Shown: positions 1,096 through 26,609 of the stretch, piece by piece
Layout: each line of letters starts with the position of its first letter
Numbering within the stretch: the first letter of the stretch is position 1
Assembly (NCBI RefSeq): GCF_001687585.2
Contig: NZ_CP016537.2
Coordinates: 654,001-718,000 of the forward strand
Origin: Planococcus halocryophilus
GTDB taxonomy: Bacteria > Bacillota > Bacilli > Bacillales_A > Planococcaceae
Direction: 5' to 3'
Length of the DNA stretch: 64,000 bases
Notes under the pieces: model-generated
Seen by the model: the letters and a program-made list of their open reading frames with translations, nothing else
What the model was told of the DNA's origin: nothing
Database searches by the model: none
Translations under genes and position numbers: made by a program

Positions 1096-1374
1096 GTAAG
1101 CGTCTAATAATGAACACCTGGTTTCTTAGAAAAGAAAATGCCTTTCCGATTTTTTGTCGGAAAGGCATTTTTTATTTTTTCTTTTGGATATAACAGTCTT
1201 TCGGAAGTTCCTTCGACCACAGCATGAGATGCTCGGTAAGCGTCTAATAATGAACACCTGGTTTCTTAGAAAAGAAAATGCCTTTCCGATTTTTGTCGGA
1301 AAGGCATTTTTTATTTTTTCTTTTGGATATAACAGTCTTTCGGAAGTTCCTTCGACCACGGCATGAGATGCTCG
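1096..1374. repeat. Tandem duplication (140 + 139 bp) of the IS66 terminal region
   Basis: Positions 1096-1235 and 1236-1374 are near-identical. They differ by one T in the hairpin loop and one A/G change near the inner edge. Each unit starts with the terminal inverted repeat GTAAGCGTCTAATAATGA, contains the terminator hairpin and ends with the last codons of tnpC. The inner unit holds the real tnpC 3' end. The outer unit is an extra copy with no upstream gene body. Confidence 0.92.
1276..1314 (-). terminator. Terminator hairpin at the end of the IS66 operon
   Basis: AAAATGCCTTTCCGA pairs with the GTCGGAAAGGCATTTT arm across a short T-loop, with A/T runs on both sides, so it can work in both directions. 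An identical hairpin sits in the outer duplicated end at 1136-1176. Confidence 0.75.
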
Positions 1375-2897
1375 AGGTTCAGGTCCGCCGTCATGTCCAG
1401 CTGCGGAAGTTCTTCGAAAAGAAATTGAAGGTAGAAAAATGGATTTAAGCCATTCTCTTTGGCTGTCTCTACGAGACTGTAGATGATGGCACTGGAATTC
1501 GCTCCGCTTGTCGAAACGGCGAACAGCCAATTTTTTCGTCCAATGACGAACGGTTTAATCGACCGTTCCGCACGATTGTTGTCGATCTCGATGCGTCCGT
1601 CTTTCATGAATGTTGTCAGCTTATGCCATTGATTCAACGAATAGGTGATGGCTTTCCCGGTGGCTGATTGCGGCGCAATGATTTCTTTTTGTTCATGGAG
1701 CCAAGCCAAATAAGCATCCAGCACAGGCTGACTGTCTTTTTGTCTTATTTTCAACCGCTCTTTGGCGTCCAACTTCTTGATTTTTCGTTCAATCGCGAAT
1801 AATTGGTTACAGAAGTTGAGGCCCTTTTTGGCAATCGTCGATCGGGTGGAACTTGATGAGGGGCTCTTCAATGCCTTCAGCGCCTCATCGAATTTCCGAC
1901 GGGCATGTGCCCAACAGCCCGCGAGCTCCACATTTTCGAGCGATTCATAACCGGCATATCCGTCGACGTTGAGGTAGCCTTCGTATCCCTTCAAGAAATC
2001 CTTCGGATTTTTACTCGATCGGTTCGCTCGGTAATCGAAAAGGACCATCGGTTTTTTCGTTACAGAACTCGTGCGATAGAGCCACATGTACGACTTGGAT
2101 TGTGCTATCTTGCCGGGTTCATCGAGAACTTGCAGGCTGGTCTCATCGGCATGAAGCAACTCTTCCTGCAGGAGTTGACGGTGGAGAAGATCATAAAACG
2201 GGCGCAACCAGCGGGTCGTACTTGAAATCATCCAATTCGAGAGTGTCTGGCGGTTCAACGGGATGCCCATCCGTTCCAGCTGCTTTTCCTGACGATAAAG
2301 CGGAAGACCATCCGCAAATTTTTGCGTCATGACAAAGGCGATTGCGGAAGGTGAAGCCAATCCCTTTGGGATGACTGGATTTGGCATTTTCGCTTTGACG
2401 ATGGGAGTCGTGATGGCATGCTTCTCACAATGACGGCAGCTGTAAATGTGCTGAACGTGTTCCACCACTTTGACCTGCGCCGGAACGACCTTCAATTCTT
2501 GCCGGGTTTGGTGGCTCATTTCATGAAGTTCGTGATTGCATGCCAAACAGACCTTCTCTGCATCAGAAAGGTCGTAATGGATGGTTTCGACCGGCAGGTC
2601 TTTCAGTTTTTCTGCACGGCCGCCAATTTTTTTGCGCGTGTAGTTGATGGTCTCCATTGTCGGTTCCGCCAATAAGACGGCAGAAGAGATTTCGGCTTCG
2701 TTGAAAAGCTGAAGCGTCAACTGGTTGTCGTCCGTCTTTTCGCTGGATACACCAAAGCGTTTCTGCTGGGCCAATCGAAACTGCTCTTCGTACCACTGCA
2801 CCTTCAGCTCCAGTGTCTTCATCTGGTTCTCTAGCTGCGCGTTCTTCTTTTCCAATTCTTCAATTGTGGGTGAGGTCTTTCCGTCCATTATTTTCAT
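1311..2897 (-). CDS. tnpC: IS66 family transposase TnpC
   Basis: This is the catalytic DDE transposase of the IS66 element. Domains in order are an N-terminal leucine-zipper-like segment (about residues 8-60), a zinc-binding region with CLAC...CRHC cysteine pairs, and the long DDE_Tnp_IS66 domain. Catalytic-type acids are visible in LLHADETSLQV, LNVDGYAGY and the Glu of DNNRAERSIKPF. The C-terminal tail LMPWSKELPKDCYIQKKK is encoded inside the inner copy of the duplicated IS end. The start is uncertain: ATG at 2897 gives 528 residues, while a TTG at 2930 would add 11. Neither has a strong ribosome site, as expected if translation is coupled to tnpB, which ends 39 bp upstream. Length fits the family. 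Confidence 0.93.
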   Translation of the reverse strand: MKIMDGKTSPTIEELEKKNAQLENQMKTLELKVQWYEEQFRLAQQKRFGVSSEKTDDNQLTLQLFNEAEISSAVLLAEPTMETINYTRKKIGGRAEKLKDLPVETIHYDLSDAEKVCLACNHELHEMSHQTRQELKVVPAQVKVVEHVQHIYSCRHCEKHAITTPIVKAKMPNPVIPKGLASPSAIAFVMTQKFADGLPLYRQEKQLERMGIPLNRQTLSNWMISSTTRWLRPFYDLLHRQLLQEELLHADETSLQVLDEPGKIAQSKSYMWLYRTSSVTKKPMVLFDYRANRSSKNPKDFLKGYEGYLNVDGYAGYESLENVELAGCWAHARRKFDEALKALKSPSSSSTRSTIAKKGLNFCNQLFAIERKIKKLDAKERLKIRQKDSQPVLDAYLAWLHEQKEIIAPQSATGKAITYSLNQWHKLTTFMKDGRIEIDNNRAERSIKPFVIGRKNWLFAVSTSGANSSAIIYSLVETAKENGLNPFFYLQFLFEELPQLDMTADLNLEHLMPWSKELPKDCYIQKKK

Positions 2898-2936
2898 AAG
2901 TCTAAGAATAGCACAAAAGTTTTGCCTCAAATAGAC

Positions 2937-3293
2937 CTAAATGATTTTTTTCGCCGCAACGGATGGATGCGCCTGACGTTGGTTCAGCGGCAGGCCATCA
3001 AGCAACCAGTTCAACTGCCGAGACGTGATTGGAAGGGGCAGGCTGGACCCAAGGTCCGGCCAATCGAACAACCCTTTTTCCAATCGGCGGTAGTAGAGCC
3101 AGAAGCCATTGTGATCCCAGAATAGAATCTTGAGCTTGTCTTTCTTCCGGTTACAAAACACAAAGAGCGCGTTGGAAAAAGGATCGAGCTGAAATAATTC
3201 CTGGACGATAACCGCGAGCCCATCAATTGACTTTCGGAGGTCTGTCGGTCCGGTAGCCAAATACACCCGCTCGACAATTCGGCCATTCATCAT
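2937..3293 (-). CDS. tnpB: IS66 family accessory protein TnpB (Orf2)
   Basis: This 118-residue protein is of the IS66 Orf2/TnpB type, required with TnpA and TnpC for transposition in characterised IS66 elements. Recognition rests on the family hallmarks VYLATGPTDLRKSIDGL near the N-terminus, NALFVFCNRKKDKLKIL in the middle and GFWLYYRRLEKGLF after it. The start codon overlaps the tnpA stop by 4 bp, so translation is probably coupled. No damage is visible. Confidence 0.93.
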   Translation of the reverse strand: MMNGRIVERVYLATGPTDLRKSIDGLAVIVQELFQLDPFSNALFVFCNRKKDKLKILFWDHNGFWLYYRRLEKGLFDWPDLGSSLPLPITSRQLNWLLDGLPLNQRQAHPSVAAKKII

Positions 3294-3595
3294 AATTGAT
3301 TAAGTGTCCGAAGGACCTTCAGTAACAGTTCGTCCTGGAAGCCACTCATCACCTCAATTTCCACATTTTTTATTTTCAACGTAAGCGTCGTCTCGCTCGA
3401 AGGTTCTTCTACCAGACAGGAGACCCAAGCGGTCTCTTGCGACTTTTTGGATACGGGCGACTGTTTGCGCAGCCAGTATTTCATCGTGTGGAGTTTGATG
3501 TCCTTCCTCTCGCACCATTGAACTAAAGTTTCTCCACTTTCCCGATATTCACTGATTTGACCTGTCCAATATAATTCTTTCTCTTTTCTTTTCAA
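3290..3595 (-). CDS. tnpA: IS66 family accessory protein TnpA (Orf1)
   Basis: This 101-residue protein is the first gene of the IS66 operon. The N-terminal half carries a helix-turn-helix-like region typical of IS66 TnpA (WTGQISEYRESGETLVQWCE, then HTMKYWLRK), and the C-terminal half a short beta-rich segment. A GGAGGAG-type Shine-Dalgarno precedes the start. The right IS end follows about 85 bp upstream of the gene. The frame is intact and overlaps tnpB by 4 bp. Confidence 0.88.
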   Translation of the reverse strand: MKRKEKELYWTGQISEYRESGETLVQWCERKDIKLHTMKYWLRKQSPVSKKSQETAWVSCLVEEPSSETTLTLKIKNVEIEVMSGFQDELLLKVLRTLNQL

Positions 3596-3689: not shown

Positions 3690-3935
3690 AGGGAAGGTCC
3701 GGGGACAATTTAACCTGGATAGTGGAAGAAAAAATCGCTTTCCTGTGTTAAAAAATTCTAAACGACCCTGACAATCCATACTCCATACAAAGTCACACCT
3801 GCAGCAATACTGCGAGTGTGACTTTTCCGGTTTATTCATTTCCTCATGAAACAAACGCTTGTGTAAACGGGAACAAAACAGGGAACTCTTATATCAATAG
3901 GTTAATCACCTGACTTGATCAGAAAAGGAGCAGTT
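3690..3935 (+). repeat. Displaced copy of the UvrA-like gene's leader (no gene attached)
   Basis: This 246-bp block is nearly identical to 5696-5943, which is the leader and ribosome site (GATCAGAAAAGGAGCAGTT) immediately before the UvrA-like gene at 5948. Here the block breaks off right after the ribosome site. In place of an ATG and coding sequence there is an interspersed repeat starting at 3944. The block begins 2 bp after the IS66 target duplication. Confidence 0.88.
3736..3885 (+). repeat. Interspersed terminator repeat, copy 1 (inside displaced leader)
   Basis: The left end ATCGCTTTCCTGTGTT, the conserved AATTCTAAACGA box and a terminator-like hairpin (3792-3825, GTCACACCTGC / GCGAGTGTGAC) are present. 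The right end is a degenerate AAACAGGGAA. It matches copy 6 at 5741-5893 because the whole leader is duplicated. Confidence 0.7.
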
Positions 3936-3943
3936 GATAAAAA

Positions 3944-4103
3944 CGCGTCCCTGGGAAAGAAACAATTCTAAACGATTTCAACAATACACAACAATTTATA
4001 TCATATACATTACTGCAACCGCTGCATCTATGTTTAAGGTGCAGCTTTTTCATATTATTCATCTGTATAAATTGTGTGGGAATTGTTTCGCTCCCAGGGA
4101 AGC
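3944..4103 (+). repeat. Interspersed terminator repeat, copy 2 (best-preserved ends)
   Basis: This 160-bp element has imperfect terminal inverted repeats of about 24 bp: CGCGTCCCTGGGAAAGAAAC at the left and, at the right, GTTTCGCTCCCAGGGAAGC, its near reverse complement. A central hairpin with T-run (4021-4050, GCTGCA / TGCAGC) resembles a Rho-independent terminator. No clear target duplication is visible. It stands where the UvrA-like coding region would begin after the displaced leader. Confidence 0.8.
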
Positions 4104-4774
4104 AATATCTCGATTCTAAAAAAATTTGTCTGTACACATTTACACTGCACACAGCACCGCTCTGAGAAAATCAACTTTCCTCAAGCGGTTTTCTTATTAA
4201 CCGGGAACAAAACCTTCAGGTATGAGACAAAAAGAAACGTCAATGTCTAGAAAAAATCAGACTTCAACAACGCCCTAGAGAAAGAAGCAATTTTAAAAAA
4301 TAGGGGAATGAAACATCGAGAGATCAGCGGAACGTGATAGAATATCAATTAGTGGGACATTAAATCTTCTTATAGTAAGCTGTATTATCTTGCCTAGAAG
4401 GAATTACTCCATTCATAGATGATAGATGAATTAAAAAGGATAGATAGCAAAGGGGACAAAACAGTAGAACAAAAATGAACGAGATACTCCGGAAACCGCT
4501 TCCCTGTGTTGAACACAATTCAAGGTATACAATAATACTGCATAAGAAAATAGAAAAATCCATATTAGAAAGAATTCCGATTGCATTTATATGGTTATCG
4601 TTAAGTATTCATAATTGAGGGACGCACAGGGGCCAATACTAAAATTAAATTACATATACAAGTTTCCCTATAAGCGCAATATTCATAGATAGAAATTTTA
4701 AATTTTATCCAGAGATATGAAATGTGTGGAAGTTGTTTCGCTCTAGGGAAGCGGAATGAAAGTAGGTAGACTCT
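4104..4774. other. Intergenic remnant DNA without a convincing gene
   Basis: There is a weak terminator-like hairpin at about 4157-4197. A degenerate copy of the interspersed repeat seems split here: its left end is at 4497-4543 (CGCTTCCCTGTGTTGAACAC) and a right end at 4722-4754 (GAAGTTGTTTCGCTCTAGGG), with about 180 bp of unrelated AT-rich DNA and no hairpin between. The only reading frame, at 4360-4563 on the minus strand, lacks a ribosome site and any recognisable motif. Confidence 0.55.
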
Positions 4775-5350
4775 TTGAATAAGTTGTATAAGCCAAAATT
4801 ATTAGCAGCAATACCTATATTTTTAATTATTATTAGTTTATTAGCTGATGTATTTACTTTAACTAGTTTTAATACTATTGAATATATAAGAGGATATGCC
4901 CCATATTCCTATTTAGCAGTGTTAGTAATTCCAGTTTGTGTATATATGTTCTCAGTTGCTTTAAACCTTAGAAATTCTCGAAAAAAGTTTGAAGGTGAAA
5001 TATCTTTCGACTACTCAAGAAACAGTGGGGTGTTACAGATAGGAGAGGAAGAATATTTGTTTGATACAAAATGGACTAAAGCAAGCGATCAATCTATACA
5101 TGTCTATTCAGATGAAGAAAATATTGAAAACATTGGTCACTTAAGAGGTACATATGAATTTCCCAATGCTAATAACTTCAATGACTTTTTTAAAAATAGT
5201 TCACGCTCATACACAGTCGGAGTAGGAGATATAGTTTTGTGGCGGAATAAATGGGGGAAACATGCAGCTGTAAAAGTAAAAGAAATAAGAGATAATTCTA
5301 GAGGAGCAGAAGAAGATAAGTTATCACTAGAATACAAAATTTATAATTAA
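4775..5350 (+). CDS. Hypothetical membrane protein with two N-terminal helices
   Basis: I do not recognise this 191-residue protein. It has two hydrophobic segments (about residues 9-30 and 44-63) followed by a hydrophilic domain of about 125 residues, rich in Asp, Glu and Asn, with no cysteine cluster or known motif. The chosen start is TTG at 4775. The ribosome site (AGTAGG) is weak, so the start is uncertain. The gene is markedly AT-rich compared with the UvrA-like gene downstream and is bracketed by interspersed repeats (right end at 4722-4754, left end at 5364), which suggests recently acquired or poorly conserved DNA. Confidence 0.6.
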   Translation: MNKLYKPKLLAAIPIFLIIISLLADVFTLTSFNTIEYIRGYAPYSYLAVLVIPVCVYMFSVALNLRNSRKKFEGEISFDYSRNSGVLQIGEEEYLFDTKWTKASDQSIHVYSDEENIENIGHLRGTYEFPNANNFNDFFKNSSRSYTVGVGDIVLWRNKWGKHAAVKVKEIRDNSRGAEEDKLSLEYKIYN

Positions 5351-5363
5351 TATAAAATAAAAT

Positions 5364-5410
5364 CGCTTCCCTGTGTTGAACCCAATTCAAGACATACAAC
5401 AATACTGCAT
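5364..5410 (+). repeat. Interspersed terminator repeat, partial copy 4 (left end only)
   Basis: CGCTTCCCTGTGTTGAACCC followed by AATTCAAGACATACAACAAT matches the left end of the partial copy at 4497 and, more loosely, the full copies. No hairpin follows. It lies 14 bp after the stop codon of the membrane-protein gene. Confidence 0.55.
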
Positions 5411-5543
5411 AAATTCGTGTATCAAGAGTGGAATTGACTTTAGGTTTCTTCTTTCGAATAATCATGCTGTCATCCCCTGTCTACGGAATCAGGTATTTTT
5501 GTATAGAGTATACCCGTTTTTGTCCATTTTAAGGGGGTAAAAA

Positions 5544-5702
5544 CGCGTCCCTGGGAAAGAAACAATTCTAAACGATTTCGACAATACACTACAATTTTTA
5601 TCGCATACATTACCACACCCTCTACGTCTACATTGTGGGTGTGGTTTTTTGATTTTATTCATCTCTAAGAATTGTGTAGGAATTGTGGGGCACACAGGGA
5701 AG
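5544..5702 (+). repeat. Interspersed terminator repeat, copy 5
   Basis: The left 40 bp are almost identical to copy 2 (3944). The central hairpin is at 5613-5650 with stem CCACACCC / GGGTGTGG and a T-run. The right end (TGTAGGAATTGTGGGGCACA then CAGGGAAG) runs directly into the UvrA-like leader block, whose duplicate at 3690 starts at the same base. Confidence 0.8.
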
Positions 5703-5943
5703 GTCCGGGGACAATTTAACCTGGATAGTGGAAGAAAAATCGCTTTCCTGTGTTAAAAAATTCTAAACGACCCTGACAATCCATACTCCATACAAAGTCA
5801 CACCTGTAGCAGCAACACTGCGGGTGTGGCTTTTCCTGTTTATTCATTTCCTCATCCAATAAACGCTTGTGTAAACGGGACCAAAACAGGGAACTCTTAT
5901 ATCAATAGGTTAATTACCTGACTTGATCAGAAAAGGAGCAGTT
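5696..5943 (+). promoter_or_regulatory. Leader region of the first UvrA-like gene (duplicated at 3690)
   Basis: This 248-bp block ends in the ribosome site AAAAGGAG and directly precedes the ATG at 5948. It contains an interspersed-repeat copy with a terminator-like hairpin (5798-5835, GTCACACCTG / GGGTGTGGC plus T-run), so a terminator stands between any upstream promoter and the gene. It could act as an attenuator or simply end transcription of upstream genes. Confidence 0.6.
5741..5893 (+). repeat. Interspersed terminator repeat, copy 6
   Basis: Same architecture as copy 1: CGCTTTCCTG left end, AATTCTAAACGA box, hairpin at 5798-5835 and AAAACAGGGAA right end. Compared with copy 1 the stem differs at several positions. 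Confidence 0.7.
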
Positions 5944-5947
5944 CACC

Positions 5948-8218
5948 ATGGCAGAAAAAAGAGATGAAATCATCCTGAGAGGGTTGCAGGAAAATAATTT
6001 GAAGAATGTCGATTTGAATATCCCGAAAGAAAAGATAAATGTGTTTACCGGCCTGTCGGGTTCAGGCAAAAGCTCAGTTGTCTTTGATACATTAGCGACA
6101 GAAAGCAGGAGGCAGATGACGCTGAACTACCCACTGTATATCCGGCACCAGATGCCGAGGTATGAACGGCCGCGTGCCGATTTGATGCAGCACTTAAGTC
6201 CGGTGGTCGTTGTCGAGCAGAAACCGGTAAGAGGAAATTCGCGTTCGACTGTCGGCACTTATATGGATATCGATCCGTTGATCCGCTTGCTATTTTCGAG
6301 GATCGGCAGCCCGCCGATCGGCTCAGCCGCCGAGTTTTCGAGTGACAGTTCTTTCGGCAAATGTCCGGAGTGCAGTGGACTCGGCGAAATTATTGCGCCG
6401 GATGTCCACAAACTCATCGATCATACGAAGTCACTCCGGGAGTCCGCGGTGAGATTCAGACCGCTCGCGCCACCCGGCTGGCAAGGCAGATGGATGGTGG
6501 ATGGTGGATTGTTTGATCCCGATCTTCCCATCAAGGATTACACGGAAGAAAAATACAATCTTCTGGTCTACGGTCCGCGGGAAGGCGAGCGGGCATTCAG
6601 TACTTATTATTATAAAGTAGGCAATCGAGATATCGAATGGGACGGCATTCTTCCCCGGTTTATCCGCCTGTACATTAACCGCGACCTCTCAAAACTGAAA
6701 GTAACGTCACAGGAAGATGTGCTGGCGGTGACGGCACGTACACTGTGTCCGACCTGCGAAGGTTCTGGATTGAATCCGAAAGTGCTGGAAAGCAAAATCA
6801 ACGGCTTGAATATCGCGCAATACGACCGGCTGGAAATGACGGATTTACTGAGTGAGCTGGCGAAAATAAACAATCCGGTTGGCACATCGATTGCGCAGCA
6901 GGTGTTACCAGGTGTCAAGCAGCTGGTCGATTTGGGACTTGGCTATTTGTGTCTGGCGCGAAAAGTTGGCACGTTGTCTGGAGGAGAAGCGCAGCGTGTG
7001 AAAATCGCGCGCCATTTGGGCAGCAGTCTGAACAATATCACGTATATATTCGATGAACCGAGTGCCGGGCTGCATCCAGAAGAAATCGAGAAGCTGACGC
7101 ACATGCTGAAAAGTTTGAGAGACAACTACAACACTGTCGTCGTCATCGAGCACAATTTGGCCGTCATTAAAACAGCGGATGAAATTATCGAAATGGGTCC
7201 AGGCGCAGGTGTGACCGGCGGTCGAGTAGTTTATCAGGGCGCGCAGGAAGGCTTGCAGAAAGCATCCGCGATCACTGATTTAAACCATAAAGTCGCTGTC
7301 AATAAAACACCGCGACAGGTAGAAAACAGTTTTTCGATCATCAATGCATCTGCGAATAACTTGAAAAATGTAAGTGTGGAAATCCCGAAAAACGTGCTGG
7401 TGTCGGTATGCGGCGTTTCGGGTTCCGGGAAGAGTTCGTTAATGTTTGACGCATTTATAGAAAATTATCCCGAAACCATCGCGGTGAGGCAAAGCAGCAT
7501 CGGAACCTCGAGCCGTTCGACACTCGCGACCTATATGGGGATCATGGATGACATCCGGTCGATTCTTGCCAAAGAAACAGGGCAGCCTGTGGGCTTGTTC
7601 AGCTTTAATTCAATAGGAGCCTGTCCTGTTTGTGAAGGCAAAGGCGTCACCACGCCGGACGTGGCATTCGCGGATCCCGTCACCGTTACTTGCGAAGCGT
7701 GCAGAGGGACGCGCTATTCCGATGAGGCGCTGTCGTATCGCCACTTAGGGAAAAATATTGTAGAGATTTTGGAACTGTCGATTGACGAAACCAATCACTA
7801 TTTGAAAATGCCGAAAATCGTCAAAAAAGTGGATACCTTAAAAGATGTCGGCTTGGGCTACCTGACACTCGGGCAGACGACCAGTTCGTTGAGTGGCGGC
7901 GAAGTGCAGCGCCTCAAACTCGCCAGTCACCTGAAAAAAGAAGGCCAGATTTACTTGCTCGATGAACCCTCATTGGGACTGCACACAAAAGACAATGCGC
8001 ATCTATTGGCCGTGTTTCAAGGACTCGTCGACAGAGGGAATTCGGTGATCCTCATCGAGCACAATCTGGACTTTATCGCGGCAAGCGACTGGGTCATCGA
8101 AATGGGTCCAGGTGGTGGTAAAAGAGGAGGAGAAATCCTATTTGAGGGAACACCGGAAGCGATGCTCGAGTCGGATACGGTGACGGCGAAGTGGCTGAGA
8201 AAAGATGCGGAGAGATGA
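5948..8218 (+). CDS. Short UvrA-like ABC ATPase (excinuclease A paralogue), copy 1
   Basis: This 756-residue protein has the two ABC modules of UvrA but is shorter than canonical UvrA (about 940 residues). Module 1 has Walker A GLSGSGKSS (about residue 35), signature LSGGEAQRVKIA and Walker B YIFDEPSAGLHPEE. Module 2 has GVSGSGKSSLMF, LSGGEVQRLKLASHL and IYLLDEPSLGLHTKD. Zinc-finger cysteine pairs CPEC, CPTC, CPVC and CEAC are kept. ATG at 5948 follows AAAAGGAG. The missing length lies mainly in the N-terminal inserted domains (in UvrA, UvrB binding and DNA contact), so a role outside classical nucleotide-excision repair, such as protection from DNA-binding drugs, is possible but unproven. 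A close paralogue lies at 19923-22190. This copy prefers C/G at third positions more than the paralogue does. Confidence 0.88.
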   Translation: MAEKRDEIILRGLQENNLKNVDLNIPKEKINVFTGLSGSGKSSVVFDTLATESRRQMTLNYPLYIRHQMPRYERPRADLMQHLSPVVVVEQKPVRGNSRSTVGTYMDIDPLIRLLFSRIGSPPIGSAAEFSSDSSFGKCPECSGLGEIIAPDVHKLIDHTKSLRESAVRFRPLAPPGWQGRWMVDGGLFDPDLPIKDYTEEKYNLLVYGPREGERAFSTYYYKVGNRDIEWDGILPRFIRLYINRDLSKLKVTSQEDVLAVTARTLCPTCEGSGLNPKVLESKINGLNIAQYDRLEMTDLLSELAKINNPVGTSIAQQVLPGVKQLVDLGLGYLCLARKVGTLSGGEAQRVKIARHLGSSLNNITYIFDEPSAGLHPEEIEKLTHMLKSLRDNYNTVVVIEHNLAVIKTADEIIEMGPGAGVTGGRVVYQGAQEGLQKASAITDLNHKVAVNKTPRQVENSFSIINASANNLKNVSVEIPKNVLVSVCGVSGSGKSSLMFDAFIENYPETIAVRQSSIGTSSRSTLATYMGIMDDIRSILAKETGQPVGLFSFNSIGACPVCEGKGVTTPDVAFADPVTVTCEACRGTRYSDEALSYRHLGKNIVEILELSIDETNHYLKMPKIVKKVDTLKDVGLGYLTLGQTTSSLSGGEVQRLKLASHLKKEGQIYLLDEPSLGLHTKDNAHLLAVFQGLVDRGNSVILIEHNLDFIAASDWVIEMGPGGGKRGGEILFEGTPEAMLESDTVTAKWLRKDAER

Positions 8219-8574
8219 AAAGATTCTTCTGTGTGGGGCGGCATAAAATCGCGCTCCTGTGCAGAAAACAATACACGACAATTTATTTACTATACATTGC
8301 TGCACCTACCACATGAAAAATTGGGGTGCAGCTTTTTGATTTTATTCCCCTCTATAAATTTGTGAGAATTGTACGAAACACATCGAACACACACTGCAAC
8401 TAATTCATCTATGTTAAATAAATCAGTTTGCAGGAGTAGGTTTAAGGGAAAGTGCATTTATAAGGGAGTTTTTAGTTAGGATAGGCAACTCTTAATCAAT
8501 TTCCGATGTTTGATTTCTGAGAACTGAATTTTATAGTTACTCAGTTAAAATCTTAAAAAAGAGGAGGAAAAACG
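8219..8574. other. Intergenic region with repeat copy 7 and promoter of the next gene
   Basis: After the repeat (8250-8386) about 190 bp of AT-rich DNA leads to the ribosome site GAGGAGG before 8575. I see no further gene. Confidence 0.5.
8250..8386 (+). repeat. Interspersed terminator repeat, copy 7
   Basis: It starts 32 bp after the UvrA-like stop codon with CGCGCTCCTGTGCAGAAAAC. The central hairpin at 8300-8337 has stem CTGCACC / GGGTGCAG and a T-run. The right end GAATTGTACGAAACACAT is eroded. It is well placed to terminate the UvrA-like transcript. Confidence 0.72.
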
Positions 8575-9888
8575 ATGACGAAAATTTCGTGGTCAAAATT
8601 AATGTTCTCTGCAATGCTGATGTCTGTATTAACTTTAGCAGCATGTGGTAATGATGATACTGCAGACGAAAAATCAACGGATGACTCGGAGGCTGTAACA
8701 GAAGAAAATGCTGAAGAGGGCTCTGAAGAAGAAGCAAATGAAAGCGCAGAAACTGAACCAAAAGTTACTGAGTTTGAACCCGCATTTCCAGAACAAACAA
8801 GAGCACCTGCAGTAGAGACTGAAACAGAAATTGAAACAGAAGTTATTGTTGAGGGTCTTGGCGTCTCTTGGGGTATGGCAGAGTTTGAACCAAATCGCTT
8901 ACTTGTTACGCAAAGAGATTCAGCAGAACTTCTTATTGTAAACCTTGAAGATGGCTCTGTTTCAGATCCAATCGAAGGTACACCAGAAGTAAATAACGAA
9001 GATCAAGGTGGTTTACTTGATGTAGCCATTGCACCTGATTTTGACGAATCGCGATTAGTCTTTATGACGTTTGCTCAAGATATTGAAGGTGGTACGGTAA
9101 CTGCTGTCGGTAAAGGTGTTTTATCTGAAGATGAAGCTTCACTTGAAGATTTTGAAGTCATCTTCCAAGCGACACCAGCATATGAAGGTACTTTACACTA
9201 TGGCGGACGGATTATCTTTGATGATGATGGCAACCTATTCTTAACAACTGGTGAACGTTCAGATGACGAAAGTCGCGATCGTGCACAAGAATTAGATGCT
9301 TATTTAGGTAAAGTCATTCACATCACACAAGACGGAGAACCAGTAGATACGAATCCATTTGTCGAAGATGAAAACGCACTAGATGGTATATACAGCTACG
9401 GCCACCGTAATATTCAAGGTATAGATTACAACCCTGCAACAGGAGACTTATGGATTGTTGAATTCGGTCCACAAGCTGGGGATGAACTGAATATTATTGA
9501 ACCAGCCAATAACTATGGATGGCCAATTGTTTCTTATGGCATCGAGTACACGGGTGAATTAGTCAATGATGGTATTTCAGAACACGAGGCGCAAGGATTT
9601 GTTGAACCAAGATATTATTGGGATCCAACAAGTGCACCAAGTGGTATGGCATTCTATGACAACGACGCCATTCCGGAGTGGGAAAACAACTTGTTCATCG
9701 GTGCTTTAGCGCCGAGCTATATTGTCCGTGTCGTTATTGAAGATAACATGATCGTTGGAGAAGAACGTCTATTAACTGACGAAGGCGAACGCTTCCGTGA
9801 TATTCTTGTCACTGAGGATGGCGCGCTTATTGCCATCACTGATGGCGGTAAGGTTTATAAGCTTTCTGCAGCAGGGGAAAGTAACTAA
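8575..9888 (+). CDS. PQQ-dependent sugar dehydrogenase family lipoprotein
   Basis: This 437-residue exported lipoprotein is of the soluble glucose/aldose dehydrogenase (GSDH) beta-propeller family. The signal peptide ends in a lipobox LAAC (Cys about residue 24), followed by an acidic Asp/Glu/Ser linker to about residue 65. Propeller hallmarks follow: GGLLDVAIAPDF, GGRIIFDDDGNLFLTTGER, YGHRNIQGIDYNP and ELNIIEPANNYGWPIVSYG. In characterised members this fold oxidises sugar aldehydes with PQQ. No PQQ biosynthesis gene is in the window, so activity would need external cofactor or the protein may have another role. A GAGGAGG site precedes the ATG. The gene stands alone, closed by repeat copy 8. 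Confidence 0.87.
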   Translation: MTKISWSKLMFSAMLMSVLTLAACGNDDTADEKSTDDSEAVTEENAEEGSEEEANESAETEPKVTEFEPAFPEQTRAPAVETETEIETEVIVEGLGVSWGMAEFEPNRLLVTQRDSAELLIVNLEDGSVSDPIEGTPEVNNEDQGGLLDVAIAPDFDESRLVFMTFAQDIEGGTVTAVGKGVLSEDEASLEDFEVIFQATPAYEGTLHYGGRIIFDDDGNLFLTTGERSDDESRDRAQELDAYLGKVIHITQDGEPVDTNPFVEDENALDGIYSYGHRNIQGIDYNPATGDLWIVEFGPQAGDELNIIEPANNYGWPIVSYGIEYTGELVNDGISEHEAQGFVEPRYYWDPTSAPSGMAFYDNDAIPEWENNLFIGALAPSYIVRVVIEDNMIVGEERLLTDEGERFRDILVTEDGALIAITDGGKVYKLSAAGESN

Positions 9889-9910
9889 GTTAAAGTCGAC
9901 GACGTAGAAT

Positions 9911-10070
9911 CGCGTTCCTAGGAAAGAAAGAATTCTAAACGATTCTAACAATACGCGACAATTTGTATCACACATATTGCCACATCCGCTATTATTCACT
10001 TTGCGGGTGTGGTAATTTTATTTTGTTCATCTGTACAATTTTGTGGGGATTGTGCTCTGGGAAACAAAGC
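9911..10070 (+). repeat. Interspersed terminator repeat, copy 8
   Basis: The left end CGCGTTCCTAGGAAAGAAAG plus AATTCTAAACGATTC starts 22 bp after the dehydrogenase stop. The hairpin at 9980-10018 has stem CCACATCCGC / GCGGGTGTGG. The right end is GGGGATTGTGCTCTGGGAAA. Confidence 0.78.
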
Positions 10071-10119
10071 GATAATATGCAATGATAGTATAAGCAAGTA
10101 AATTTAAAGGAGTGACACA

Positions 10120-10581
10120 ATGGACGGATTAGTAAAACAAAAATTAGGTGAGATACTCGATGTGTTTGAGGGGCTTCCTCATTGTAAAGTTGAGCCGAGT
10201 GTAGACGATCAACTTGTAATCACCAGTGATAAACCAGTCGTTTGGAGTGACTCACTCGAGAATCAGGATGCGGAATCCACGCATAAAATTGGAACGATTA
10301 AACCTCATAAACTTTCACTCGGTCTTTACATCGATTTTCCGCACGGATACTTAGATGCTGACAAGTTGGAAAAAATTATAAACCCTGAAGGAACGTTAAC
10401 GTATTATCCGCCGGGCACAAAGGCGCCTACTGTGAAAAGCTGGTGGCGTTTCCGCTCTGATGAGAAATTTGATAGTATCCACCTGGTTCTAAGAAAAATC
10501 GAGTTAGCCTATTATAATTTTAAAAGAGAAGATTGGATTGAGTTAATGCGAGAGATTACTGAAGCTCATGAAGAAAAATGA
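10120..10581 (+). CDS. Hypothetical cytoplasmic protein, 153 residues
   Basis: I do not recognise this protein. It has no signal peptide, membrane helix or cysteine cluster. It looks like a compact mixed alpha/beta domain with aromatic-rich segments (GTLTYYPPGTKAPTVKSWWR near residue 90) and a charged C-terminal helix. AAAGGAG lies 7 bp before the ATG, and codon use resembles neighbouring genes, so it is probably real. It is a single-gene unit flanked by copies 8 and 9 of the interspersed repeat. Confidence 0.72.
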   Translation: MDGLVKQKLGEILDVFEGLPHCKVEPSVDDQLVITSDKPVVWSDSLENQDAESTHKIGTIKPHKLSLGLYIDFPHGYLDADKLEKIINPEGTLTYYPPGTKAPTVKSWWRFRSDEKFDSIHLVLRKIELAYYNFKREDWIELMREITEAHEEK

Positions 10582-10584
10582 AAA

Positions 10585-10748
10585 CCGGCTCCTTAGATAG
10601 AAGTAATTCTAATAGATGACGACAACAAACAATAATTTATAATTCATACATTGCTACACCTGCTAAATCAACAGCGCAGGGGTAGCTTTTTTATTTTATT
10701 TATTCATAAAGGTTGTATAAGAATCGTTTGGCTCTTTGAGAAGGGAAA
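10585..10748 (+). repeat. Interspersed terminator repeat, copy 9
   Basis: It begins 4 bp after the preceding stop codon. The left end is eroded (CCGGCTCCTTAGATAGAAG). The hairpin at 10654-10692 has stem CTACACCTGC / GCAGGGGTAG with a T-run. The right end TTTGGCTCTTTGAGAAGGGA is weak. Between this copy and the next gene, 10749-10927 holds only AT-rich promoter-like DNA. Confidence 0.68.
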
Positions 10749-10927
10749 TCGTAAGAATATAAATTAATTAAGTGGTACTTAAGCGTAGATGTAAAAAAAT
10801 ACGGATATAAACAAACGAATTATCAATTTATTTTCTAGTCCAATACTTTACATTTATAGAAAAAAGTTGTCATTCCGATTGCCCAGCCGTTATACTTTTA
10901 AAAAAGATTAAACAGGAGGAGAACGTC

Positions 10928-11644
10928 TTGGGTATATTCGATAAAATTCTTAAAAAGCAGAAAAAGGAAGAACCAATCAGCGGAATTTCTTTGAAGAAAA
11001 AAGCGGCGACGATTGTTCTAGAGAAGAAGCAACTGACTGATGTCACTGCACGAGTAGGTGTTGTCCTTGATATTTCAGGTTCCATGAGAAAATTGTATAA
11101 GGAAGGTGTCGTACAGGAAGTGGTGGAGCGGGTGTTAGCAGTCGCGAGTCAGTTTGATGATGACGGTGATTTGGATGTTTGGGTCTACGACAACGAATTC
11201 TCACGTCTACCAGAAGCGACAGAGGCAACATTCATGGGTTATGTGGAAAAAAATATCCTCTCGAATGACAGCGTGCACAAGTTCGGCCGCAACGATGAAC
11301 CGAAAGTGATGGAAGATGTAATCCGTAAGTATACGAAAGAAGAACTAAGTGACGATCCTGTATTTCTTGTTTTCATCAATGATGGTGGATGTAAATCGGG
11401 CATTAAGAAATTCATCGTGGAATCATCAGGTCAGCCGATCTTTTGGCAGTTTGTAGGGATAGGCGACTCGAATTTCGATGTGCTGCGAAAATTAGATACC
11501 ATGGGTGGACGAGTGGTCGACAATGCGAACTTCTTCCACCTTGAAGACATCAGCCAAGTATCTGATGAAGAATTATATGATCAGTTGTTGAATGAGTTTC
11601 CGATGTGGCTTAAGGAAGCCAAGGAAAAGCGGATTTTGCGCTAA
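10928..11644 (+). CDS. vWA domain protein, TerF-like
   Basis: This 238-residue protein consists of a basic N-terminal stretch (LKKQKKEEP), a short linker of the sort preceding vWA domains in tellurite-resistance TerF proteins, and a von Willebrand A domain from about residue 40. The metal-ion-dependent adhesion site DISGSMR is intact, and VFINDGG supplies the later conserved acid. Such cytoplasmic vWA proteins usually serve as scaffolds in stress complexes. The TTG start at 10928 is set by AGGAGG 7 bp upstream. No TerD/TerC gene is nearby. The gene at 11926 is separated from it by repeat copy 10. Confidence 0.82.
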   Translation: MGIFDKILKKQKKEEPISGISLKKKAATIVLEKKQLTDVTARVGVVLDISGSMRKLYKEGVVQEVVERVLAVASQFDDDGDLDVWVYDNEFSRLPEATEATFMGYVEKNILSNDSVHKFGRNDEPKVMEDVIRKYTKEELSDDPVFLVFINDGGCKSGIKKFIVESSGQPIFWQFVGIGDSNFDVLRKLDTMGGRVVDNANFFHLEDISQVSDEELYDQLLNEFPMWLKEAKEKRILR

Positions 11645-11651
11645 GTAAAAA

Positions 11652-11800
11652 TACTTCTATGCGAAAGAAACAATTCTAAACGATTCCGATAATACACAAC
11701 AACATATAATTTATCCATTGCTACACCTGCGAAATCAACAGCGCAGGTGTAGTTTTTTTATTTTATTCGTTTTCAAAAATTATGCTTAATCTAAAGAATA
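11652..11800 (+). repeat. Interspersed terminator repeat, copy 10
   Basis: It begins 7 bp after the vWA stop. GAAAGAAACAATTCTAAACG is conserved. The hairpin at 11721-11760 has a perfect stem CTACACCTGC / GCAGGTGTAG followed by seven T. The right end has decayed. Confidence 0.72.
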
Positions 11801-22190: not shown

Positions 22191-22215
22191 ATCGTGTCCC
22201 TTGTGTGGAATATAC
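22191..22215 (+). repeat. Left-end scrap of the interspersed repeat after UvrA-like copy 2
   Basis: ATCGTGTCCCTTGTGTGGAA resembles the left ends ATCGCTTCCCTGTGTTGAA seen at 4497 and 5364. It starts at the stop codon of the UvrA-like gene, the same position as copy 7 after the first UvrA-like gene, but then breaks into unrelated coding sequence. Confidence 0.4.
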
Positions 22216-26365: not shown

Positions 26366-26422
26366 TCTTGTCCCTGTATAAGAAAAAATCTAAACGATTC
26401 TGACTATACAGCACGATTTTTA
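26366..26422 (+). repeat. Interspersed terminator repeat, partial copy (left end)
   Basis: CTTGTCCCTGTATAAGAAAA followed by ATCTAAACGATTCTGACTAT matches the left half of the repeat of the 3.7-12 kb zone. The conserved hairpin is replaced by an unrelated terminator at 26453. It lies about 30 bp after the orphan gene pair, again a 3' flank. Confidence 0.6.
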
Positions 26423-26452
26423 CTCCGAATTTAAAAAAATATCACCCCCACC

Positions 26453-26488
26453 AAAAGCAGCTCCGCGTAACAGAGGAGCTGCTTTTTC
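26453..26488. terminator. Terminator before the amidohydrolase operon
   Basis: AAAAGCAGCTCC / GGAGCTGCTTTTT stem. It closes the orphan gene pair upstream. Confidence 0.85.
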
Positions 26489-26609
26489 ATTGAATTTATA
26501 TTCAGAACAATCAAAATTAAAGTAGCGCTTAATAAGTAGAATAGTGTACAATCTTTATTAACGGAATGATTAAGGTTTATTTCCTTAAATAGAAAAGCAG
26601 GTGACAGTG

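Follow-up and report, generated by a model that had tools for sequence, protein, structure and literature searches.

Replication-oriented, terminator-like repeats of Planococcus and their link to exchanged gene units and a RAYT-comM locus

We examined a 64-kb window of the Planococcus halocryophilus chromosome (G000:C1:654001-718000, from a one-contig genome of 3,424,893 bases) that carries copies of a palindromic repeat, hereafter R, behind genes. Copies of its main subfamily, R1, are ~160 nt long and share terminal inverted repeats and a AATTCTAAACGA box, and their central stems vary from copy to copy yet pair, as a sequence-only reading of this DNA had proposed. Going beyond that reading, we find that R orientation in Planococcus follows the replication strand, that R is linked to a locus encoding a RAYT transposase and ComM, and that R copies lie at the boundaries of exchanged gene units; these properties are more informative than the repeat family itself. 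The repeats and associated genes of the window are as follows (window coordinates; bits are covariance-model scores).

3733..3876, + strand: R1 variant lacking a short internal segment; 5738-5884 is its duplicate (55.7 bits)
3941..4103, + strand: R1, full length (177 bits)
4021..4050, + strand: intrinsic-terminator-like hairpin and T-run within the preceding copy (scan)
4501..4632, + strand (G000:C1:658501-658632): repeat of a second subfamily, R2 (R2 model, E 1.9e-9)
4697..4752, + strand: repeat fragment, right half only (sequence matches)
5357..5412, + strand: repeat fragment, left half (91% over 53 nt to 4493-4545)
5541..5703, + strand: R1, full length (172.7 bits)
5738..5884, + strand: R1 variant upstream of the UvrA-like gene (62.6 bits)
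5948..8218, + strand: UvrA-like gene, 756 aa
8247..8389, + strand: R1 with shortened left arm (82 bits); genome G029 lacks a copy at the matching place
9908..10066, + strand: R1 (127.4 bits)
10582..10744, + strand: R1 (122.7 bits)
10928..11644, + strand: TerF-type vWA gene, 238 aa
11649..11805, + strand: R1 (80.8 bits)
26366..26505, + strand: degenerate R1 (nhmmer, E 2.5e-16)

A repeat family with covarying stems

All places where the sequence-only reading had put its seven or more near-complete copies do hold copies. Two of these, at 3736 and 5741, are shorter variants and are not independent, because they lie inside a duplicated block (window 3690-3935 recurs at 5696-5943 with 93-100% identity, a 246-bp local duplication). 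Its partial copies fared unevenly: that at 4497 is rather an R2 copy, those at 4722 and 5364 correspond to a right half and to a stretch resembling the left part of the R2 copy, that at 26366 is degenerate, and that at 22191 found no support, with a single match of E 4.7 on the other strand. Across the whole P. halocryophilus genome, blastn returned 12 R1 matches, every one on the + strand and between 638.9 and 680.4 kb (42 kb). A covariance model recovered 13 distinct R1 copies in the analysed stretch of this genome, fragments besides, and 15 matches genome-wide at E<=0.01, a count in which palindromic copies may appear on both strands. Rfam at gathering scores matched nothing in the window.

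Over all copies R measures ~140-180 nt, with inverted end motifs of the type CCCTGTG..ACAATT / AATTGTGT..CACAGGG around a hairpin, predicted for the window's subfamily to be of the intrinsic-terminator type. The full-length copy at 3941-4103 folds as one long stem (-58.3 kcal/mol and z -8.3 as RNA; z -5.7 as bottom-strand DNA). RNAalifold found no structure on a 30-copy alignment (A1). Removal by eye of five divergent rows (L015:8119, window 8247, window 11651, L036 and L019, the last seemingly read from the wrong strand) left alignment A2, with 25 chosen copies from several species aligned without structure. A four-helix structure, derived from this same alignment, pairs 85.0% of its cells. 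Double changes occupy 49 cells, compared with 23.1±4.0 after shuffling (0/500 shuffles reach 49) and 19-31 in slid controls, and they fall in 7/9 pairs of the outer stem and 8/10 of the terminator stem; the two middle stems, whose sequence is conserved, are hardly informative on pairing either way.

An arm-swap test on 174 copies, which takes in the two window copies left out of A2, agreed with this covariation. With copies aligned to the model, a step that favours pairing, at least 7/10 terminator-stem pairs were kept in 109/174 copies vs 76.9±4.3 with arms swapped (maximum 86 in 200 draws), and at least 6/9 outer-stem pairs in 137/174 vs 100±4.8 (maximum 111). A T-run (5 or more T among the 8 nt beyond the stem) follows in 139/174 copies vs 8.6% of flank 8-mers, and 97/174 copies combine a good terminator stem with a T-run. 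The element thus has the G+C-rich covarying stem and T-run of a putative intrinsic terminator. The expectation that copies would mostly lie within 50 bp of stop codons was half right: among 165 copies assessed, 128 have a same-strand upstream neighbour, and in 62 of these the stop codon is at most 50 bp upstream. The sequence-only reading had seen in R a mini-element, mobile or duplicated, whose copies were domesticated to serve as terminators. Covarying stems, T-runs and positions behind genes fit this, and a lack of covariation, which would have spoken against that reading, was not the outcome.

Orientation and distribution of the repeats

Within each block of repeats in Planococcus the copies agree in strand (175/175 copies, 34 blocks). 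Their orientation equals the sign of the GC skew in 34/34 Planococcus blocks, most of which are one orthologous locus and so do not make 34 independent tests, and in 6/6 blocks of two genomes of the Filibacter group (G085 and G225), where 2/42 copies of G225 oppose their own block. Complete chromosomes also carry copies on the opposite arm, chiefly at 2.3-3.1 Mb, and there on the opposite strand; at 12 additional loci near the comM-RAYT site described below, 59/59 copies follow the skew, and weaker single copies elsewhere are nearly all on the strand predicted by this rule (arm judged from the coordinate). Repeat orientation in Planococcus therefore follows the replication strand. In the array spans 138/441 genes oppose the repeat direction, therefore gene direction alone does not explain the uniform orientation.

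The family is widespread, and the many copies anticipated for the genome and its relatives were found by covariance-model scan. The R1 model (E<=0.01) matches 45/46 Planococcus genomes, some by one weak match only. It also matches 63 genomes in a draw of 200 from the order, those beyond the genus weakly. These weak matches proved to be true arrays when searched with models built from their own copies: the analysed stretches hold 40 copies in Filibacter tadaridae G085, 42 in G225 of the same genus group and 22 in G072 of another genus. Repeats of the G225 type also occur in Sporosarcina contigs, and a comparison by eye finds the repeat cores similar between genera. The R2 subfamily forms an array around the comM-RAYT locus on the other chromosome arm; P. 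halocryophilus has 7 R2 matches, one copy being matched on both strands, and G061 has five R2 matches and no R1 match. Confinement to one locus by local duplication, which would have spoken against the sequence-only reading, thus holds for the blastn matches in P. halocryophilus and fails across the genus and for R2. We found no account, in the open-access literature searched, of this kind of repeat from Planococcus or Sporosarcina.

Two side observations concern the layout of the arrays. The P. halocryophilus loci at 639-680 kb and 2.630-2.638 Mb are roughly mirror-symmetric on the two arms, if numbering begins near the origin, and repeat loci are likewise mirror-symmetric in G027, G065, G061 and G035, as if parts of one array had been swapped between replication forks. 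Head-to-tail R pairs occur at 590-630 kb of G225 C1 (L154, L155), at 594025+594175, 600434+600582, 610094+610243, 620297+620444 and 629185+629332.

A RAYT gene, comM and the repeats

Y1_Tnp genes are present in 29/46 Planococcus genomes (39 matches, a few of the shorter IS200 kind by length). The P. halocryophilus gene encodes 201 aa with class 2 motifs (PF01797, E 3.8e-17); a comparison of RAYT with solved structures gave no match at 1e-3. We examined 27 loci picked as open reading frames (ORFs) with an HUH motif, 26 of them from the 39 Planococcus matches and one from Filibacter. All 27 carry Y...NP, given as the signature of the RAYT class (class 2) in the part of PMC6006769 available, and domain and motifs place them among class 2 Y1 transposases (RAYT / TnpA-REP).

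An R-like palindrome (strict pattern) lies within 450 nt downstream of RAYT in 14/27 loci and upstream in 0/27, vs 4/488 control windows (Fisher p 6e-17; control windows overlap one another and are unmatched for intergenic sequence, and one locus has just 137 nt downstream). Repeats thus border the RAYT gene at about half of the loci, though not directly in P. halocryophilus. The gene lies between R copies in Filibacter G085, G225 and G072 and next to copies in G027, and R1-model matches adjoin it in G027, G032 and G065. We also observed a shorter version of ~87 nt (CCCTGTGC..CACAATTT, a terminator-like hairpin, TGAATTGTGT..GCACAGGG) downstream of RAYT in L321, L322, L359, L364 and L368; this version and lone right halves adjoin RAYTs without comM at their side.

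In 7/27 loci, judged strictly, comM directly precedes RAYT, and several further loci show this layout with a differing start or a truncation; 7-10 nt separate the end of the comM match from the RAYT ATG. At E<=1e-60, comM was not found in 24/25 other genomes searched, the single exception being G072, whose gene lies near RAYT among repeats. Because the two are tightly paired and comM was not found in those 24/25 genomes, they look like an accessory pair. In the open-access literature searched we found no report of comM beside RAYT. The P. halocryophilus locus comprises the following (genome coordinates).

2629721-2629863: R2 copy, ~190 nt upstream of comM
2630055-2632172 (L380:8055-10172): comM-RAYT gene pair, found in several Planococcus species and Filibacter
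2637585-2637727: R2 copy, separated from RAYT by IS21-like and IS66-like insertion sequence (IS) genes

Repeat number goes with the pair: R1 matches average 11.3 in genomes with a comM match beside RAYT (n=12, with partial comM in G027 and G060 and a short stretch in G032) vs 2.6 where RAYT lies elsewhere (n=14; p 1e-4), a contrast that ignores phylogeny and leaves RAYT genomes G006, G021 and G069 unclassed.

Exchanged gene units and candidate explanations

Comparison of matching places between genomes revealed two clean cases of gain or loss of a gene together with its repeat. In P. halocryophilus, the repeats after a 153-aa gene and after the vWA gene match the left and right parts, respectively, of the one repeat present at this place in G029, G002 and G030, where the unit of vWA gene and repeat is absent. 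G002 reads gene-R-(UvrA-like gene-R)-GSDH gene and G030, at the same place, gene-R-GSDH gene; accordingly the window's UvrA-like gene and its following repeat have a counterpart unit in G002 and none in G030. Nine gene-unit rows were obtained, four of which support these cases; the other five were set aside as lying several units apart or enclosing no gene, with a left identity that was often 74-78%. Flank homology is one-sided in 121 pairs (left only 51, right only 70) vs two-sided in 17, with flanks unmasked for neighbouring repeats, such that some one-sided pairs stem from neighbouring copies. In 53 one-sided pairs, which are not independent, many having copies in common, pairwise alignments place the change points before the left end, in the interior or past the right end, some exactly at the left end of R; a single fixed crossover position in R was rejected on this scatter. 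Exactly one gene lies between repeats in 49/141 intervals, many others holding 0 or several. The junction G030:545632 was discarded as an exchange event, since by eye it looks like an IS insertion. As judged from these alignments, the pattern would suit homologous recombination from repeat to repeat, accompanied by some events that are exact at the boundary, and not a single site-specific crossover.

We lean towards the reading that R copies are RAYT-associated, non-autonomous palindromic elements of the Planococcaceae, a terminator-bearing variant in Bacillota resembling REPINs (paired repetitive extragenic palindromes, REPs) or the terminal inverted repeats (TIRs) of RAYT-like genes. Where the lagging-strand template is single-stranded, R would fold and RAYT would cut and join there. 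RAYT-type enzymes would act on one strand, and inserted R copies would hence all face the same way with respect to the fork. Those behind stop codons may serve as terminators and be retained for that. Through its direct repetition, R may be a crossover zone for the gain, loss and exchange of units of gene and R, with homologous recombination between copies as the probable main route. Two members of the IS200/IS605 family are reported to prefer the lagging-strand template (PMC6006769, in the part available). RAYT belongs to the same enzyme superfamily; the P. halocryophilus RAYT differs from that family in its 201 aa with class 2 motifs, and no transposase-carrying mobile unit between two R ends is demonstrated.

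REPs are described as hairpins of 20-40 nt with a GTAG or CGTC foot in the available parts of PMC3733652 and PMC6006769 (further REP/REPIN-RAYT papers, likewise available in part: PMC3116915, PMC2817692). In common with REPs and REPINs as these parts present them (PMC3733652, PMC6006769), R copies are palindromes outside genes, frequently behind them, with inverted motifs at their ends, and are located at an HUH/Y1 transposase gene with the class 2 Y...NP signature (PMC6006769). The built-in covarying terminator-like hairpin sets R apart from both, and the phylum of its host, Bacillota, is missing from those that the available parts of PMC3733652 and PMC6006769 name for tagged REPs. A REPIN is two inverted REPs in a larger hairpin; R has inverted motifs at its ends and an outer stem that pairs, but its half units may not be REPs. 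TIRtrons (TIRYT) are RAYT-like genes flanked by long TIRs, in families that are moderately abundant and sometimes clustered, with a reported GGGGWSAS motif (PMC3733652, PMC6006769, as available). They share with R a RAYT-like gene bordered by longer repeats in small clustered families. Here, in contrast to TIRtrons as presented in those parts, the copies on both sides (G002, G085) have the same orientation and are each a palindrome, and RAYT is paired with comM.

Several observations weigh against a RAYT-associated origin, along with the shared ancestry of most Planococcus blocks given above. R is ~140-180 nt long vs 20-40 nt for REPs, lacks a conserved GTAG/CGTC foot (alignments A2 and A5; REP features as in the sources available in part), and stands in one-orientation arrays, with R1 copies and R2 matches of P. 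halocryophilus mostly in two loci and not dispersed as REPs and REPINs are. Because these features of size, foot and dispersal do not hold for R, we do not term it a REP; RAYT-associated and REPIN/TIR-like is the better name. Directly downstream of the P. halocryophilus RAYT are IS genes and no repeat, and the RAYTs of G019, G062 and G066 have no downstream repeat. R1 matches average 6.0 in genomes without RAYT (n=17) and 6.4 in those with it (n=29), counted as matches in which a palindromic copy can score on both strands, and RAYT-less G030 (17 matches) and G003 (13) retain large arrays; our guess is that these arrays outlasted their transposase. The G072 arrays (L149, L150, L145) are of mixed strand, 13 - and 9 +, with strand-score margins of ~30 bits for strong copies, and the match at G009:687057 has almost equal scores on the two strands, that of the strand opposed to the rule being slightly higher. 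Empty sites comprise only the G029 deletion and weak cases, none of which gave a clean pair that shows a target signature.

Integron cassette arrays, including clusters of attC sites lacking an integrase (CALIN), are directional arrays of genes and folded repeats. The R arrays resemble them in this and in the gain and loss of units, and we considered whether R is an attC-like folded single-strand site at which an unknown or lost recombinase exchanges units of gene and R. The same orientation of copies and its link to replication, the alternation of genes and repeats in the 49/141 one-gene intervals, the excess of one-sided homology and the two clean single-unit indels all speak for this. We nevertheless judge it quite unlikely: R looks unlike the attC core boxes, change points are scattered over the non-independent pairs, many intervals hold 0 or several genes, and neither an integrase nor another site-specific recombinase was found near the P. 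halocryophilus array, the four tyrosine-recombinase and three resolvase matches of this genome all lying >400 kb away. G009 has two tyrosine-recombinase matches in total, presumably XerC/XerD. A related idea is a long shot: comM, RAYT and R would together make up a system that captures genes as single strands, similar to an integron but relying on an HUH enzyme. ComM has a branch migration role in transformation; it would branch-migrate incoming DNA, RAYT would cut and join at R hairpins, and units of gene and R would enter arrays at R. The idea is raised by the apparently accessory nature and tight spacing of the comM-RAYT pair, by the R copies around it in Planococcus and Filibacter, and by the position of the two genes among R copies in G072.

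Homologous recombination and local duplication might alone account for the arrays; R would then be an ancient intergenic sequence, equipped with a terminator, whose copies spread through a single plastic region without an enzyme of their own. The 42-kb limit of the blastn matches in P. halocryophilus, the 246-bp duplication, the scattered breakpoints and an R1 number independent of RAYT presence are as this would predict; the association with RAYT in several genera, the arrays on both arms and the weaker single copies elsewhere on the rule-predicted strand are not, and we regard it as improbable. Very improbable in our view is a miniature inverted-repeat transposable element (MITE) of a classical DDE transposon, with terminal inverted repeats and target duplication. 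Terminal inverted repeats and a length of ~160 nt recall bacterial MITEs (PMC3733652, in the part available), but no target duplication was recognised, with few empty sites to judge by, the orientation is uniform, the outer stem covaries and the link is to a Y1 transposase.

If the RAYT-associated reading is right, RAYT-linked repeats extend into the Bacillota, and three features would be new: an element with its own conserved terminator, a repeat orientation that closely follows the replication strand, and a comM-RAYT pair of accessory kind next to modules that are exchanged. Gene-end-like repeats that mark gene exchange would suggest two candidate ways in which domesticated RAYTs may benefit their hosts, termination and gene exchange.

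Genes between the repeats include those for a sortase, an AAA_13 protein and the TerF-type vWA protein (L015:2-487 and 5630-8050; window 10928-11644). One R copy is interrupted by an IS66-like element (three ORFs on the minus strand, named by ORF layout; L015:10650-13266, genome 650650-653266) with an 8-bp target duplication, CTAAAAGA. A second IS66-like copy occupies window 1311-3595, and a comparable ORF set lies near the left-arm RAYT locus.

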